DNA from: a virus
DNA length: 39,992 bases
Strand: one strand, 5' to 3'
IMG/VR virus record: IMGVR_UViG_3300023083_000008
Coordinates: 1 to 39,992 of that record
The notes beneath the pieces are model-generated. The model saw only the letters and a program-made list of their open reading frames with translations, was not told the DNA's origin and ran no database searches. Of the stretch, positions 3,680 through 19,206 are shown in pieces (within the stretch, counting starts at the first letter, position 1; the number at the start of each line of letters is the position of its first letter). The position numbers and the translations under genes were made by a program.

Positions 3680-3753
3680 ATGCGCCCATGTTCCAAGGCC
3701 GGCGAGTTGGTCTCCAAAACCGACTGAGGCAGGTTCGATTCCTGCGGCGTATG
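3680..3753 (+). tRNA. tRNA-Trp (anticodon CCA)
   Basis: A 74-nt cloverleaf can be drawn. The acceptor is ATGCGCC (3680-3686) with GGCGTAT (3746-3752), including one G-U pair. The anticodon stem is TTGGT/ACCGA with loop CTCCAAA (3712-3718), anticodon CCA at 3714-3716. The variable loop is 5 nt, and the T arm is GCAGG-TTCGATT-CCTGC (3729-3745). The 3' CCA is not encoded. The D arm is poor: GG is present at 3697-3698 but only about three pairs form, a degeneration seen in some phage tRNAs. It lies between the lysis genes and a strong terminator. Confidence 0.75.
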
Positions 3754-3763
3754 CAATAAGACG

Positions 3764-4576: not shown

Positions 4577-4588
4577 CTGCAATTGCAG
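4577..4588. repeat. Perfect 12-bp palindrome CTGCAATTGCAG
   Basis: Fully self-complementary, between the attP core and the integrase start. Possible operator for integrase expression or part of the intasome; a TAGAAT box (4555-4560) lies just upstream. Confidence 0.4.
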
Positions 4589-4628
4589 TGTTTAGTACGC
4601 TGGAGGACGACCGCGACCGACTGAGGAT

Positions 4629-4645
4629 GGCTAACGACATGGCTA
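4629..4645. promoter_or_regulatory. Candidate arm-type site, right copy, overlapping integrase start
   Basis: GGCTAAC (4629-4635), three bases, ATGGCTA (4639-4645). It contains the preferred integrase ATG, so binding there could also control integrase translation or transcription. Confidence 0.5.
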
Positions 4646-5844
4646 CAGCGAAGAAGCGAAGGCAGTACGGCAGCGGCAGCGTCCATGAACGCAAGACTGA
4701 TGGGCGTTGGATCGGCACCATTGAGGCCGGCTGGACTGCCAATGGAACGCGCCGCCGTATCACCGTCTCCGCCTCCACCGAGAAGGCTTGCCGCGACAAG
4801 CTCAAGGCGCGCAACGAGGAGATCATCCGCGACGGCATCCCCATCGCGTCGGTTCGCACGAGCGTCAAGACCTGGGCCGAGGACTGGCTCAAGACGACAC
4901 AGAACGAGATCCGCCCCAAGTCGTGGAACGCGAACCGGTCCGCGGTGCGGCAGTGGATTATCCCGGCCATCGGTCACGTCAAGGTCTCCGCGCTGACCTC
5001 CCACGACATTGAGCGGTTTAAGCTGGCGATGATCGACGGCGGCCTCGCCCCGTCCTCCATGAGCCGTAATCACAACGTGTTGAACAAGATGCTGGGAGAC
5101 GCGCTCATCGCCGGCTTCCGCATTCATGCCGGGGTGTTCAAGGTAAAGAAGATCCCGGCAGGCAAGACGCCGTTGACGGCGATCCCGTTGTCGCTCGCGC
5201 TCGAGCTGCTGCCGTACATCGAGAAAGAGGCCGATCCGTCTCGCTGGGTCGCCATCATGCTGAACGGCATGCGGCAGGGCGAGCGGCTCGGGCTGCGGTG
5301 GCAGGACGTCGACTTCGACAAGAAGATCATCCGCGTGCAGCGCCAGTTGCAGGAACTGCCTTACCGCGACAACCAGAACAAACACCTCGGTTTCCGCGTT
5401 CCGGTCGGTTACGACACCGTCCAACTTGTCGACCGTTGGCACCTCGTGCCCGTTAAGACAGACAGCGGCGAGCGCATCATCCCTATGACCCGATGGATGG
5501 AGGACTCGCTTCGGCTCCAGCATGCGCGGACGAAGGACTCCCGCTTCGGCCTCGTCTGGTGCACAGATGACGGCATGCCGATCGACCCGAAGAACGACCG
5601 GCTGGGGTGGGCCGACCTGCAGGTGCGGTCAGGCATCGCGGAGAAGGCCGGCAAGACGTTCGGGGTCCAGGAGGGTCGCCACACAACGATCACATTCCTG
5701 AAGGAGCTCGGCGTGGAGAACGAGGTGATCGAGCAGATCGTCGGGCACTCCAAGTTAGTGGAGTCCTACGTCCACGCCGACCTCTCGCCCAAGGTGCGCG
5801 AGGCGATCGATCGCCTCGCCGGTCGGCTCCAGCTGGCTGGCTAG
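4639..5844 (+). CDS. int: Tyrosine integrase
   Basis: 401 aa from ATG 4639, chosen for the GAGGA box at 4623-4627; an in-frame ATG at 4627 and GTG at 4588 are alternatives. Parts: a basic N-terminal arm-binding region (about 1-60, RRQYGSGSV start and GRW motif), a core-binding SAM-like domain (about 72-165) and the catalytic domain (about 178-395). Catalytic residues visible: Arg212 (GMRQGE), Lys273, Arg347-His348 (GRHT), His370 (VGHS) and the nucleophile Tyr377 (ESYVHAD). The first His of the usual HxxR box is Gln344. It integrates and excises the phage at tRNA-Thr through the adjacent attP. It converges with the ImmA-like gene, overlapping by 4 bp. Confidence 0.96.
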   Translation: MATAKKRRQYGSGSVHERKTDGRWIGTIEAGWTANGTRRRITVSASTEKACRDKLKARNEEIIRDGIPIASVRTSVKTWAEDWLKTTQNEIRPKSWNANRSAVRQWIIPAIGHVKVSALTSHDIERFKLAMIDGGLAPSSMSRNHNVLNKMLGDALIAGFRIHAGVFKVKKIPAGKTPLTAIPLSLALELLPYIEKEADPSRWVAIMLNGMRQGERLGLRWQDVDFDKKIIRVQRQLQELPYRDNQNKHLGFRVPVGYDTVQLVDRWHLVPVKTDSGERIIPMTRWMEDSLRLQHARTKDSRFGLVWCTDDGMPIDPKNDRLGWADLQVRSGIAEKAGKTFGVQEGRHTTITFLKELGVENEVIEQIVGHSKLVESYVHADLSPKVREAIDRLAGRLQLAG

Positions 5845-11995: not shown

Positions 11996-12163
11996 ATGAG
12001 CACCAACCACATCGACATCAGCATCGGACACGGCGACGTTGCCCGCGCGTACCCCGATGACAACGGTGGCGTCGTCATTGTGTCCAGAGCCGACGAGTAC
12101 CTGAGACTCGACGAGACCGTCGTCGACCAGATCGCCAAGCTCGCTTCTCAGAGGGCCGCGTAA
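11996..12163 (+). CDS. Small hypothetical protein, 55 aa
   Basis: ATG with a good AAGGAG site 7 nt upstream. Two beta-like segments (HIDISIGHGDVARAY and GGVVIVSRADEYLRL) and a C-terminal helix suggest a tiny folded domain. Its TAA overlaps the ATG of the methyltransferase (TAATG), so the two are coupled. No family recognised. Confidence 0.6.
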   Translation: MSTNHIDISIGHGDVARAYPDDNGGVVIVSRADEYLRLDETVVDQIAKLASQRAA

Positions 12164-12930
12164 TGGCGTCCCGGCAGAGGCTGCTGGACATGTTCTGCTG
12201 CGAAGGCGGCGCCGGTGTCGGGTATGACCGTGCCGGCTTCGATGTCTACGGCGTCGACATGGCCGGCAAGTTCGCCAAGCGTTACCCGTTCGCTTTTTAT
12301 CGCGGCGATGCGCTGGTTGTCCTGGCCGCATTGGTTGCGGGTGAGGGTATCGAGTTTGTCCGGCATGACGGAGTCGAGGAGACGCTTTATCTCTTCGACT
12401 TTGCAGCGATCCATACCTCGCCCCCTTGCCAGGGATACACGCGGGGAAATGCGGGTCGGGTCACCGATTGGCCGAAGCTCATTCAGCCCGTGCGCGCGCT
12501 GTTGCTTAAGACTGGACTCCCTTACGTCATCGAGAACGTCAAGGACGCCGGCCCCGAGATGGTAGACCCGGTCGGCCTCTGCGGATGCATGTTCGACCTA
12601 TCGGCCGTCGACACGGACGGCGTGACGATTCACCTCCAGCGCCTGCGCCTGTTCGAGACGAACTGGGGCATGACTGCTCCGAGGGTCTGCGATCACTCCA
12701 CCCACGAGTGGGTGGCTGGCGCTTACGGTGGCGCTCGCCGCGACAAGTACGAGGCGAAGTACGTCCGCAAGGGCGGCTACGTCCCGCGCGACAAGGACGT
12801 GGTGAAGCGACTCCTCGGCGTCGAGCACGACATGACGTGGAACGGGCTGTTCGAGTGCATCCCGCCTGCGTACTCAGAGCACATCGGGTCGCAGTTGCTG
12901 GCGCGGATCACGAGCGAGGTGGCCGCATGA
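12163..12930 (+). CDS. C5-cytosine DNA methyltransferase
   Basis: 255 aa. Motif I is at about 7-26 (LLDMFCCEGGAGVGYDRAGF, the SAM pocket); motif IV is SPPCQ at 86-90 with catalytic Cys89; motif VI is VIENV (Glu124, Asn125). QRLRLFE resembles motif VIII, and EHIGSQLL near the end resembles motif X. It transfers methyl groups to cytosine C5. At 255 aa it is short, with a small target-recognition region, as in many phage enzymes. No restriction endonuclease lies nearby, so protection of phage DNA from host restriction is the likely role (inference). Its stop lies next to the stop of the leftward RHH gene. Confidence 0.9.
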   Translation: MASRQRLLDMFCCEGGAGVGYDRAGFDVYGVDMAGKFAKRYPFAFYRGDALVVLAALVAGEGIEFVRHDGVEETLYLFDFAAIHTSPPCQGYTRGNAGRVTDWPKLIQPVRALLLKTGLPYVIENVKDAGPEMVDPVGLCGCMFDLSAVDTDGVTIHLQRLRLFETNWGMTAPRVCDHSTHEWVAGAYGGARRDKYEAKYVRKGGYVPRDKDVVKRLLGVEHDMTWNGLFECIPPAYSEHIGSQLLARITSEVAA

Positions 12931-13660: not shown

Positions 13661-13761
13661 GCTGGCGATGCCCTCACTGCGGCTACGGGATCAACCAGCA
13701 CCCCGAATCGCGCGGCGCCACCATCTGCCCGCCTGACGACGAACCGAAGGACGACGAATGA
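13657..13761 (+). CDS. Tiny zinc-ribbon peptide, 34 aa
   Basis: ATGA overlaps on both sides. SWRCPHCGYGINQHPESRG, then CPPDD: Cys5-x2-Cys8, His15 and Cys24 look like a minimal zinc ribbon. It is coupled to the exonuclease gene that follows, so a role in recombination is possible but unproven. Confidence 0.6.
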   Translation: MSWRCPHCGYGINQHPESRGATICPPDDEPKDDE

Positions 13762-14588
13762 CTCTCACCGAATACCCCCAGATAGAGCAGGGAAGCGATA
13801 AATGGCACGACCAGAGACGAGGACTGGTCACGGCATCGGTCGTCGGCAAGCTGATCGCGAGCCGCACGCTCGGCGCGATCGACTTCGACTGCCCGTCGTG
13901 TGCCGAGCCGCCCGGTCGGCCGTGCGTGAGCAAGGCCAAGAAGGCTGGCGAGGCACCCGCACCGATCAAGACGATGCACGCCGAACGATCGGCTCACGCG
14001 AAAGAGCGAGCCGTCAAGGTCCTCGAGCCAGCCGACACCGACGAGTCTCGCGGCCTCACTGCTCTCCTGGTCGCGGAACGCATCACCGGCTGGACCGACC
14101 CGACCTACATGTCCGACGACATGTATCGAGGTCACCTCATCGAGCCGATCGCCCGCGACCTCTACTCCGAGAAGTACGCGCCGGCCAAGGAAATCGGGTT
14201 CATGGTCCGCAGCGAGCCGGATTGGACTCTGGGCTACTCCCCCGACGGTCTGATCGGTGACGGCGGCCTGCTGGAAGTGAAAGCGCCAAGGGCCAAGACG
14301 CACCTGAGAACGATCCTGTCCGGCGAAGTCCCTACCTACCACATGCCGCAGATCCAAGCCGGGTTACTCGTGACGGGCCGCAAGTACCTCGACTTCGTCA
14401 GCTACTACGGCGGGCTCCCGATGTTCGTGAAGCGCGTCCTGCCCGATCAGGACTGGTTCGACGCCATCACCGACGCCTGCATCGCCTTCGAGCAGACCGC
14501 CGATCGGATGCTCGCCGACTACGAGAACAAGACCACCGGATTCGCTCAGACCGAGCGGTTCATCGACGCCATCGAAATCAGGATCTGA
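13758..14588 (+). CDS. YqaJ/lambda-exonuclease-type recombinase nuclease with zinc-finger insertion
   Basis: 276 aa. PD-(D/E)xK nuclease of the YqaJ viral recombinase family: the N-terminal QGSDKWHDQRRGLVTAS box, RGHLIEP (Glu129), SPDG with Asp163, LLEVK with Glu173-Lys175, and the MPQIQAGLL helix with Gln198. It would digest one strand of double-stranded ends to start single-strand annealing recombination. Between the first helix and the catalytic core, residues 45-77 carry Cys45-x2-Cys48-x7-Cys56-x17-His74, matching the small phage zinc-binding module with a CPxC, PGxPC and HxxR pattern; this is an insertion in the nuclease. Coupled to the next gene, probably its annealing partner. Confidence 0.87.
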   Translation: MTLTEYPQIEQGSDKWHDQRRGLVTASVVGKLIASRTLGAIDFDCPSCAEPPGRPCVSKAKKAGEAPAPIKTMHAERSAHAKERAVKVLEPADTDESRGLTALLVAERITGWTDPTYMSDDMYRGHLIEPIARDLYSEKYAPAKEIGFMVRSEPDWTLGYSPDGLIGDGGLLEVKAPRAKTHLRTILSGEVPTYHMPQIQAGLLVTGRKYLDFVSYYGGLPMFVKRVLPDQDWFDAITDACIAFEQTADRMLADYENKTTGFAQTERFIDAIEIRI

Positions 14589-16981: not shown

Positions 16982-17259
16982 CCCCCGAAAAAGCCCAAGC
17001 TCTCCTAGACGACTACACCTTCATGCGCGACACCGGCGAGACCCGCGAGAACGCAGCACGCCGCTTCGGATGCTCGCTGAGCACGCTCGACGGGAGGCTT
17101 GCTCGGGCGCGGAAAGTGGTCCGAGAAAGCGTGTCCGCGACCCCGGAAAACGCCTCGAATGACGGTAGAATATACGTGACAACTAAAGACGGCTCCGGCC
17201 ATGTGGTGGAACACATGGGGAACCCGGAGCCTGACCACTATCAAGGAGTGGCTTCGTGA
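16978..17259 (+). CDS. HTH protein, sigma-region-4-like, 93 aa
   Basis: Residues about 5-45 form a compact HTH (AQALLDDYTFMRDTG, then NAARRFGCSLSTLDGRLAR), like sigma-70 region 4 or a small transposase-type HTH. The C-terminal half (NDGRIYVTTKDGSGHVVEHM) is beta-like. Its mRNA is unusually AT-rich around 17165-17185. GTGA overlap with the methyltransferase gene that follows. Likely an early transcription or replication regulator. Confidence 0.65.
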   Translation: MTPEKAQALLDDYTFMRDTGETRENAARRFGCSLSTLDGRLARARKVVRESVSATPENASNDGRIYVTTKDGSGHVVEHMGNPEPDHYQGVAS

Positions 17260-18029
17260 ATCATACGCCCTATTTCTCAGACGAGAGCGTGACTCTCTAC
17301 CTCGGCTCGTGCGAGGAAATCCTCCCCGCACTCGAGCCGGTTGACCACATCATCACCGACCCGCCGTACAGCGCCCACGTCCACGGCAACGCACGTTCAT
17401 CCCGCATGGAGTCTGCCAACGAGCGAGGCGGTCAGTACGAGTCCGACACTCGCCGCAACGTCGACCTGGGTTTCGAGCACCTGTCGACCGAGCTCCGGGC
17501 ACTCTGTGCCGAGCAGTTCGCCCGCCTCGCTAGAAGATGGGTGCTTGTCTTCTCTGACGTTGAGTCCGACTATCTCTGGCGCGAGGACATGGTCGCAATG
17601 GGGCTGGACTACGTGCGAACCGGAGCGTGGCACAAGGTCGGCTCGACGCCGCAGTTCAGCGGCGATCGGCCCGCGACCGCCTTTGAGGCCATCACCATTT
17701 GCCACCCCAAGGGTAAGAAGAAGTGGAACGGCGGCGGGTCGCACGCATGGTGGTCGGTGCCGATCGTGCTGGACCGCTCACGCAAGGGCAGCGGTCGCCT
17801 GCATCCCACGCAGAAGCCGCTACCTCTCATGGAGGCGTTGGTCGACCAGTTCACCGACGCTGGCGACACCATCCTCGACCCGTTCGGCGGGAGCGGCACG
17901 ACCGCACTCGCAGCGGCCGAAGCGGGGCGCAAGTGCATCGTCATCGAACGCGATGAGAAGCACGCCGAGACCATCACCAAACGCATCCAGCAGAGACGGT
18001 TCGCGCTGGACTTTGGGGGTGTCGCATGA
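17256..18029 (+). CDS. DNA N6-adenine/N4-cytosine methyltransferase (DPPY type)
   Basis: 257 aa from GTG. The catalytic motif IV, DPPY (35-38), comes first, and the SAM-binding motif ILDPFGGSGTT (206-216) near the end, the order of beta-class enzymes. HPTQKP (183-188) is the typical motif X before the SAM site. It methylates an exocyclic amino group in DNA; the target sequence cannot be read here. No restriction partner is near. With the C5 enzyme at 12163, the phage carries two orphan methyltransferases, likely for anti-restriction. ATGA overlap with the next gene. Confidence 0.92.
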   Translation: MNHTPYFSDESVTLYLGSCEEILPALEPVDHIITDPPYSAHVHGNARSSRMESANERGGQYESDTRRNVDLGFEHLSTELRALCAEQFARLARRWVLVFSDVESDYLWREDMVAMGLDYVRTGAWHKVGSTPQFSGDRPATAFEAITICHPKGKKKWNGGGSHAWWSVPIVLDRSRKGSGRLHPTQKPLPLMEALVDQFTDAGDTILDPFGGSGTTALAAAEAGRKCIVIERDEKHAETITKRIQQRRFALDFGGVA

Positions 18030-18193
18030 GCACCGTTCACACAGTCCCCGTTAATGACCTCATCGAGCACTTGGACGAGGACTGCCCGTGCGGCCCGGAC
18101 GTTGAACCAGTGTTCCGCGACGACGGCAGTAATGGATGGCTGGTCAGTCACCACAGCCTCGACGGACGCGAAGCCAGGGAGCGTGACGCCTGA
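18026..18193 (+). CDS. Small conserved phage protein, 55 aa
   Basis: Overlaps on both sides (ATGA, TGATG). The sequence PVNDLIEHLDEDCPCGPDVE, then DDGSNGWLVSHHSLDGRE, belongs to a small family I recognise from many actinophage genomes but which has no known function; Cys20-Pro-Cys22 and the His-His pair could bind zinc. It commonly sits next to replication genes. Confidence 0.75.
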   Translation: MSTVHTVPVNDLIEHLDEDCPCGPDVEPVFRDDGSNGWLVSHHSLDGREARERDA

Positions 18194-19206
18194 TGGCCCG
18201 CACCCACGGACGTACTGCCACAGCCATCTGGTCGGACCCGGACTTCATCACCCTGTCCGAGGGCGCTCAGCGGATGTACCTATTCCTGTGCTCTCAGTCC
18301 GACCTCTCACACGCCGGACTTGTCCCGCTGCGGGGTCGACGGTGGGCGAAGAAGGCTGCCGAGATGTCGCCGGGAACGGTTCAGGATCGCCTCGACGAGC
18401 TTTCAAGAACGCGCTACATAGTGGTCGACGAAGACACCGAGGAAGTCCTAATCCGCACGTTCGTCCGCAACGACGGCGTCTACAAGCAACCGAAGGTCAT
18501 GCTGCGGATGCGCGAGGACGCCCGTCAGATCGAATCGCCGCGTCTCAGAGCCGCTTTCCGGGCCGAACTGGACCGGCTCCCGCTCGACGAATTGTCTGAT
18601 ATTCCGGGCGGTCCGAACCGTGACCAGCCTTCGACGCGACAGGTTGTGCAGGATGTCGTGGATACCCTTCGCGCCGACTTCGCAGACGCTGACGGATACC
18701 CATCCGAAGGGGTATCCGATACCCATCCCGATACCCCCCACGTGCGCGCGGGCGCGTTCCCCCTACCCCCTACCCCCTACCCCCAGCCACCATCCCCCGC
18801 CCCCACCACCAACCCCCGCGCCGCTTCGCGGACGCTCTCGGCTGACGCCGAGATGTCATTCACGGCGTTCTGGGATGTCTACGGAAAGAAGGTCGCGCGG
18901 CCTGACGCTGAGCGGGCATTCGCAAAGGCGCTACGGAAAACAGACGCAGCCACCATCATCATCGCTGCCGCCGAGCACCTCGCTTGGCAGCAGCGGTCGG
19001 GCAACGACCCGAAGTTCATACCGAACGCGGCCACATGGCTTAACGGCGAGCGATGGAACGACGAAAGACCGGAGCCGTCTACGCAGTCCAAGCCCGCCAA
19101 CAAGGCCGAGGAGCGCATGCGAGCCAACCTCGCCGTCGTTGAGCAACTGCGCGCCGAGGAAGAGCAGTGGTCCAGTCACCTCCGAGCGATTGAGGGCCAG
19201 CGATGA
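18193..19206 (+). CDS. Replication initiator (HTH, DnaD-like helicase recruitment domain)
   Basis: 337 aa. N-terminal winged-helix-like domain (about 10-110: TLSEGAQRMYLFLCSQSDLSHA, then MSPGTVQDRLDELSRTRYIV). A disordered Asp/Pro-rich linker spans about 150-220. The C-terminal domain (about 222-285) has FTAFWDVYGKKVARPDAERAFAKALR, then FIPNAATWLNGERW, the typical end of phage replication proteins. It should bind the origin and, with the loader encoded next, place host DnaB helicase. The linker-coding DNA holds repeated GATACCC motifs and a G-quadruplex motif (18661-18784), like the lambda O gene, whose origin lies within it. ATGA overlap with the loader gene. Confidence 0.8.
   Translation: MARTHGRTATAIWSDPDFITLSEGAQRMYLFLCSQSDLSHAGLVPLRGRRWAKKAAEMSPGTVQDRLDELSRTRYIVVDEDTEEVLIRTFVRNDGVYKQPKVMLRMREDARQIESPRLRAAFRAELDRLPLDELSDIPGGPNRDQPSTRQVVQDVVDTLRADFADADGYPSEGVSDTHPDTPHVRAGAFPLPPTPYPQPPSPAPTTNPRAASRTLSADAEMSFTAFWDVYGKKVARPDAERAFAKALRKTDAATIIIAAAEHLAWQQRSGNDPKFIPNAATWLNGERWNDERPEPSTQSKPANKAEERMRANLAVVEQLRAEEEQWSSHLRAIEGQR
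18661..18736. repeat. Iteron-like GATACCC repeats inside the initiator gene (candidate origin)
   Basis: Four direct copies of GATACCC (18661-18667, 18695-18701, 18718-18724, 18730-18736) and one inverted copy GGGTATC (18710-18716). GGATACCC (18694-18701) and GGGTATCC (18710-18717) also form a perfect 8-bp hairpin. Copies are read in two different codon frames and both orientations, so protein repetition does not explain them. Confidence 0.65.
18759..18784 (-). repeat. G-quadruplex motif: CCCCCTA tandem repeat
   Basis: Four runs of five C separated by TA on the plus strand, that is four GGGGG runs with 2-nt loops on the minus strand. It lies 22 bp after the last GATACCC repeat, within the initiator linker. 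Confidence 0.85.

Follow-up and report, generated by a model that had tools for sequence, protein, structure and literature searches.

The segment at positions 18661-18784 of a virus record of 39,992 bases (IMGVR_UViG_3300023083_000008; this whole stretch is called the window in the following) is a candidate phage replication origin that lies inside the gene for its own initiator, and the sequence analyses give this reading a probability of roughly 0.78. That an origin is located within the gene was the core of the original prediction, and it was supported by the repeats, by their place in the linker-coding part of the gene, by the conservation of this place and of the order of elements among relatives, and by a signal that goes beyond codon and peptide composition. 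By gene content, the window represents a temperate tailed phage, in which integrase, terminase, portal, major head, and tape-measure genes were detected. Table 1 lists the features of the region.

Table 1. Features of the initiator gene, the candidate origin within it, and the adjacent open reading frame (positions in the window).
Feature	Position	Strand	Basis and remarks
Initiator gene	18193-19206	+	337 aa; PHROG matches, INPHARED relatives, AlphaFold model
N-terminal DNA-binding domain (predicted), residues 1-167	18193-18693	+	AlphaFold of the domain alone: mean pLDDT 92.7, pTM 0.87
Iteron 1, GATACCC	18661-18667	+	Exact match
Iteron 2, GATACCC	18695-18701	+	Exact match; other codon phase
Iteron 3, GATACCC, inverted	18710-18716	-	Exact match
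Iteron 4, GATACCC	18718-18724	+	Exact match
Iteron 5, GATACCC	18730-18736	+	Exact match; 12 bp from iteron 4
GC-rich spacer	18737-18758		12-nt alternating purine-pyrimidine run (18739-18750), p=0.063 in the window
C-rich tract, (CCCCCTA)3CCCCC, CCCCCTACCCCCTACCCCCTACCCCC	18759-18784	- (G-rich strand)	Four G5 runs, 2-nt loops; Tandem Repeats Finder
C-rich continuation	18780-18819		C-rich unit of 19-20 bp, present twice; Tandem Repeats Finder
C-terminal domain, residues 214-286, FWDVYGKK...ATWLNGERWNDE	18832-19050	+	PHROG 270/9474/9327, AlphaFold helices
Downstream ORF, overlaps the initiator stop codon	19203-19925	+	PHROG matches solely to families of unknown function

The gene had been taken to encode a replication initiator, and this identity was supported by profile matches and by the annotation of its relatives. 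The protein matches PHROG 3171 (E 2e-45, residues 1-279), PHROG 8064 (E 1e-38, N-terminal half), and PHROG 270 (C-terminal half), all of them named replication initiation protein, with E values ranging from 2e-45 to 9e-23. The C-terminal part is matched by PHROG 270, 9474, and 9327 (replication initiation, primosomal protein). Relatives were found in 338 phage records of INPHARED with almost exclusively actinobacterial hosts and are often annotated as "replication initiation protein" or "RepA-like replication initiator". No convincing Pfam or NCBIfam model was obtained for the window initiator or its family, and the Pfam RepA_N model (PF06970) matched neither this protein nor any of 32 family members at E<=1.

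An AlphaFold model built from 32 sequences divides the protein into an ordered N-terminal domain (residues 10-167), a disordered linker (residues 168-213, with pLDDT<50 at 168-191, 196-198, and 204-213), and a helical C-terminal domain (residues 214-286, helices at 217-286). Sequence and fold searches of the PDB identified no specific relative, just weakly scoring winged-helix regulators; the structures nearest to the N-terminal domain were mostly of this type, none at E<=0.001. For the C-terminal domain, recruitment of the helicase machinery is proposed, and the open reading frame that follows the gene is placed like a helicase loader gene such as lambda P or SPP1 gene 39, a role that its position might suggest.

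The five copies of GATACCC, four direct and one inverted, span 76 bp from the first base to the last, and those on the plus strand are read in two codon phases (GAT ACC and GGA TAC CC). Iterons 3 and 4 together form GGGTATC-C-GATACCC (18710-18724). Over the whole window, nine GATACCC were counted versus 2.03 expected from dinucleotide shuffles. The tract begins 22 bp after the last iteron, and number, orientation, codon phases, and distance had all been described correctly to the base. Repeats and tract had further been assigned to the segment for the disordered linker. This holds for iterons 2-5 and the tract, which encode residues 168-198, but iteron 1 encodes residues 157-159, which form the end of a helix in the AlphaFold model.

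The tract at 18759-18784 is the sole stretch of the window with four C or G runs of >=4 and loops of 1-4 nt, and its minus strand has the four G-runs and short loops on one strand that make up a G-quadruplex sequence motif. An AT-rich unwinding element was not found beside the window iterons, and the stability of the interval 18750-18849 exceeds the phage average, with z down to -2.3. GC skew over the whole genome had no clear turning point at 18.7 kb and was uninformative.

Chance expectations were derived with the protein held fixed. In 10,000 simulated genes for the same protein, with synonymous codons drawn from the usage of 15 other phage genes, a 7-mer present five times within 150 bp was seen in three genes, and at least four copies of GATACCC in none. 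The four-run C motif appeared in 3.6% of the simulated genes because the proline-rich peptide PLPPTPYPQPP is itself C-rich in its coding sequence. Permutation of synonymous codons within the gene gave p=0.003 for the iterons and p=0.007 for the periodic C-tract. As controls, 34 segments of other window genes (repeats in 0 and tracts in 1 at p<=0.05) and 107 segments of N-terminal domains of the family (3 for each at p<=0.05) were run through the same statistics, and the tests are therefore not over-sensitive; the repeat statistic requires exact 7-mers and misses degenerate iterons. Scores of the G4Hunter type, set against the codon usage of each gene, were discarded after mixed results, as the linker provides many of the proline and glycine codons of these genes.

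The conservation of the arrangement was followed in about 95 non-redundant relatives (phages, plasmid records, and actinobacterial prophages), which were collected by pattern-based scans and from phage and plasmid collections. They tend to one order, in which the iterons are followed by a G- or C-rich tract with a period of 6-7 nt on either strand. The viral relatives L002, L003, and L176 carry 5, 5, and 7 copies of GATACCC in the linker, with varying copy number and spacing. Common to all three is GGGTATC-N-GATACCC (with A as the spacer in L002 and L003), and L003 has the same spacing as the window, 15, 8, and 12 bp around the inverted copy. Near copies of GATACCC are present in L190 and in L241, a Cellulomonas prophage that has the most identical DNA-binding domain (68%), and four copies lie on the opposite strand in L205 (JonJames). 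The initiator gene was also found on plasmid records, namely from B. longum, with six GATACCC in the linker, and from P. equi.

More distant relatives have other repeats at the same place, mostly in steps of 11-12 bp, such as AACCCTT, GAACCCATCC, TGACCCC, TTACCCC, and GATGCCA. Spacing, orientation, codon phase, and encoded peptide of the repeats vary across the relatives, but their location within the gene stays constant, and this pattern would fit binding sites better than a feature of the peptide. Many relatives had no significant exact 7-mer cluster by the statistic used, and truncated relatives lack the linker. A search of viral contigs with the 15-base palindrome GGGTATCNGATACCC returned 94 stretches, and this probe was rejected as too unspecific. 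On a tree of the DNA-binding domain with few alignment columns, in which near kin add to the clustering of iteron types, these types were clustered (32 changes versus a shuffled mean of 42, with 0/200 shuffles as low), and so was the GATACCC group (6 changes versus 7.8, 5/500). The clustering suggests that the initiator domain and its presumed binding sites change together.

Tracts with a period of 6-7 nt and one G-rich strand lie right after the iterons in many genes. The strand as written is G-rich in GGGGTAGGGGAAGGGG, GGGAGAAGGGAGTAGGGAGCGGG, and GGTGTAGGTGTA, and the opposite strand is G-rich in CCCCTGCCCCTACCCC, CTCCTACTCCTGCTCC, and the CCCCCTA units of the window; on inspection, the orientation of the iterons did not account for the choice of strand. 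A second set, separate from the viral one, comprised 54 non-redundant prophage genes of bacterial genomes; in it, repeats and tracts each reached p<=0.05 in 20/54 genes (2.7 expected for each), with combined p values of 1.5e-10 for repeats and 1e-15 for tracts, in an analysis that was not blind, as the linkers were inspected before the tests were coded and had prompted the test for alternating runs. The repeats start ahead of the tract in 19/19 scorable genes of the viral and prophage sets. A permissive tract pattern was abandoned as non-discriminating, since it occurred in 78/95 linkers versus 68 +/- 3 after synonymous shuffling and is thus largely expected from the peptides; therefore, the stricter statistic carries the claim for the tract.

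Tracts with four G runs are found in many relatives, in some on one strand and in some on the other. Many relatives instead have (GGAGNA)n, (GGTGTA)n, or (GGTTGA)n, in which the runs are too short for a stable quadruplex, and L176 has CCACC units at the place that matches the tract of the window. G-run length is not conserved, and as judged from these sequences, it is strand asymmetry and period that are conserved in the tract and not the capacity to form a quadruplex. A G-quadruplex role, for which the tract offers a sequence match, is possible in the window and not general, because many relatives are devoid of long G runs. The tract had also been described as a telomere-like repeat unfamiliar from phage origins, and this needs correction in so far as such tracts recur among the initiators of the family, with either strand carrying the G-run, and are not unique to this phage. 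Alternating purine-pyrimidine runs reached p<=0.05 in 17/54 prophage genes, and several relatives have longer runs than the window near the same place. Among them, the linkers of L233, L234, L241, L247, and L289 (genes starting at 2501 of each locus) contain, next to the tract, alternating CG/CA runs that are 17-26 nt long and of a Z-DNA-prone type.

Other roles have to be weighed for these elements. The repeats might be operators by which the initiator represses or blocks its own transcription, with the origin located elsewhere. A winged-helix protein bound within the gene that encodes it could form a roadblock, and winged-helix repressors are the best structural neighbours of the N-terminal domain, with weak scores. 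However, no GATACCC was found upstream of the initiator gene near its start, and an origin is favoured by the location in the linker, by the order relative to the G/C tract, and by the occurrence on plasmid records, which makes operators alone an unlikely explanation; the two roles are non-exclusive. Still more improbable is an origin of repeats and tract as by-products of a repetitive flexible peptide (PDTP, PAPAP, GEGEG) that is kept for protein reasons. The disorder of the linker in the AlphaFold model would agree with it, as would the tracts of the permissive pattern, which follow mostly from the peptide. Yet, the iterons occur in two codon phases and in inverted orientation, the codon-preserving tests reject chance in the window as well as in the family, and Gly-Glu, Gly-Val, Pro-Thr, and Pro-Ala tracts are encoded with the same nucleotide pattern.

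For the tract alone, a functional G-quadruplex on the minus strand or an i-motif on the plus strand might aid initiation or stop the fork, and this would be compatible with an in-gene origin. Four G5 runs with 2-nt loops, as the only such motif of the window, and the four-run tracts of relatives argue for it, but the short runs of many other relatives and the CCACC units of L176 argue against it, and the explanation is regarded as rather doubtful, if somewhat less so than that by operators. It could also be considered that the repeats serve as an origin just for a plasmid-like prophage state, or as a partition or recombination site. The initiator gene does occur on plasmid records, but the phage of the window has an integrase gene, so plasmid replication is not needed, and no parA or parB was seen among a non-exhaustive set of window ORFs, leaving this explanation very improbable.

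For an origin inside the initiator gene, the winged-helix N-terminal domain would bind as a multimer to the GATACCC iterons. It would be connected by the flexible linker, itself encoded by the origin DNA, to the C-terminal domain, which would bring the host helicase, directly or via a loader, to DNA opened beside the iterons. Since the interval 18750-18849 is more stable than average and an AT-rich element is absent, the G/C-asymmetric short-period tract just downstream may be the likely site of strand parting or helicase entry. Sites within the gene would keep the origin and the matching initiator together as one inherited cassette. As a tentative extension, which is more doubtful than the in-gene origin itself, a G-rich, strand-asymmetric tract that follows the iterons with a period of 6-7 nt, and not an AT-rich element, might be the unwinding or helicase-entry module of the origins in these high-GC actinobacterial phages, common to a large initiator family, with an alternating purine-pyrimidine stretch in some members.

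Origins inside initiator genes are already known from lambda O, SPP1 oriL, and pSK41 RepA_N. In lambda and lambdoid phages, the iterons are located in the middle of gene O, with an AT-rich unwinding tract adjoining (PMC7466680). Compared by layout, the window likewise has its iterons midway in the initiator gene, but a GC-rich, strand-asymmetric tract takes the place of the AT-rich one, so that from the lambda-like layout assumed originally the position of the iterons remains, whereas the unwinding element beside them was not found (18750-18849). SPP1 gp38 binds direct repeats within its own gene 38 (oriL), and SPP1 origins have an AT-rich unwinding element (PMC6316719). Again by layout, direct repeats inside the initiator gene are common to SPP1 and the window, but the window has no such element. 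Because of its absence, the lambda and SPP1 subtypes are not claimed for the window, and the claim refers to the in-gene position. The closest analogy for the proposed mechanism is above all pSK41 RepA_N, in which a winged-helix N-terminal domain binds Rep boxes in the centre of rep, the origin encodes the linker, and the C-terminal domain contacts replication proteins (PMC5703833). However, the Rep boxes of pSK41-type plasmids have A+T-rich tracts within them and the hosts are Firmicutes, and the window protein has no match to Pfam RepA_N.

For cluster A mycobacteriophages, Wetzel et al. 2020 placed the suspected origin inside repA or beside it, and their search for repeats in the repA region found none (PMC7157519). 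The cluster A RepA proteins (Miko, Rachaly, Jeeves) bear the same database label as the family of the window. Miko RepA did not match the DNA-binding-domain profile of this family even with filters off, and iterons were absent from its linker. Phage records apply the label "RepA-like replication initiator" to at least two protein families between which no relation was detectable (Miko repA, L294:783-1682).

What differs from the known cases is the layout of iterons and GC-rich tract over a large actinobacterial phage family, together with the absence of the expected AT-rich opening site beside the window iterons. No description of an in-gene origin for this initiator family was found in the literature searched, which is weak evidence of novelty, with most subscription journals outside the scope of the search. 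For most actinobacteriophages, the lytic origin is not known to have been mapped. The rule that iterons are followed by a G/C tract in the initiator linker would predict origins in many sequenced phages and prophages of Gordonia, Mycobacterium, and Streptomyces. If the G-rich tract replaces an AT-rich unwinding element, this would bear on origin opening in high-GC genomes, and the pairs of initiator domain and iteron type could be material for studying a joint change of specificity.

Shortly after the tract, many relatives contain the motif GGTTACGTAAGTA with the palindromic core TTACGTAA (L176:3657-3667, L191:3660-3670, L199:3651-3661, L211:2663-2673, and L225:2136-2146). It is significant in part of the family and absent from the window, and well-matched copies are always in one reading frame; a peptide cause (GYVS) or a DNA origin of the motif is possible. 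In the plasmid relative from B. longum (L229:1954-2230), the tract after the six GATACCC has a similar period and is richer in AT, TATACCTAATACCTTATACCC, as though its base composition followed that of the host. The linker is also where three viral contigs break off (L002:3610, L003:3557, and L184:3602), in two cases inside the C-rich tract, suggesting that sequencing or assembly fails at this tract.

In the window, two DNA methyltransferase-like genes and a YqaJ/RecE-like exonuclease gene lie upstream of the initiator gene (12163-12930, 13758-14588, and 17256-18029), and a tRNA-Trp gene (3680-3754) is found about 0.8 kb from the integrase gene (4588-5844). In plasmid phiM2 of Streptomonospora litoralis (L228:1477-2115), a relative of the N-terminal domain is fused to an HNH-endonuclease-like domain, which replaces the linker and the C-terminus of the initiator.
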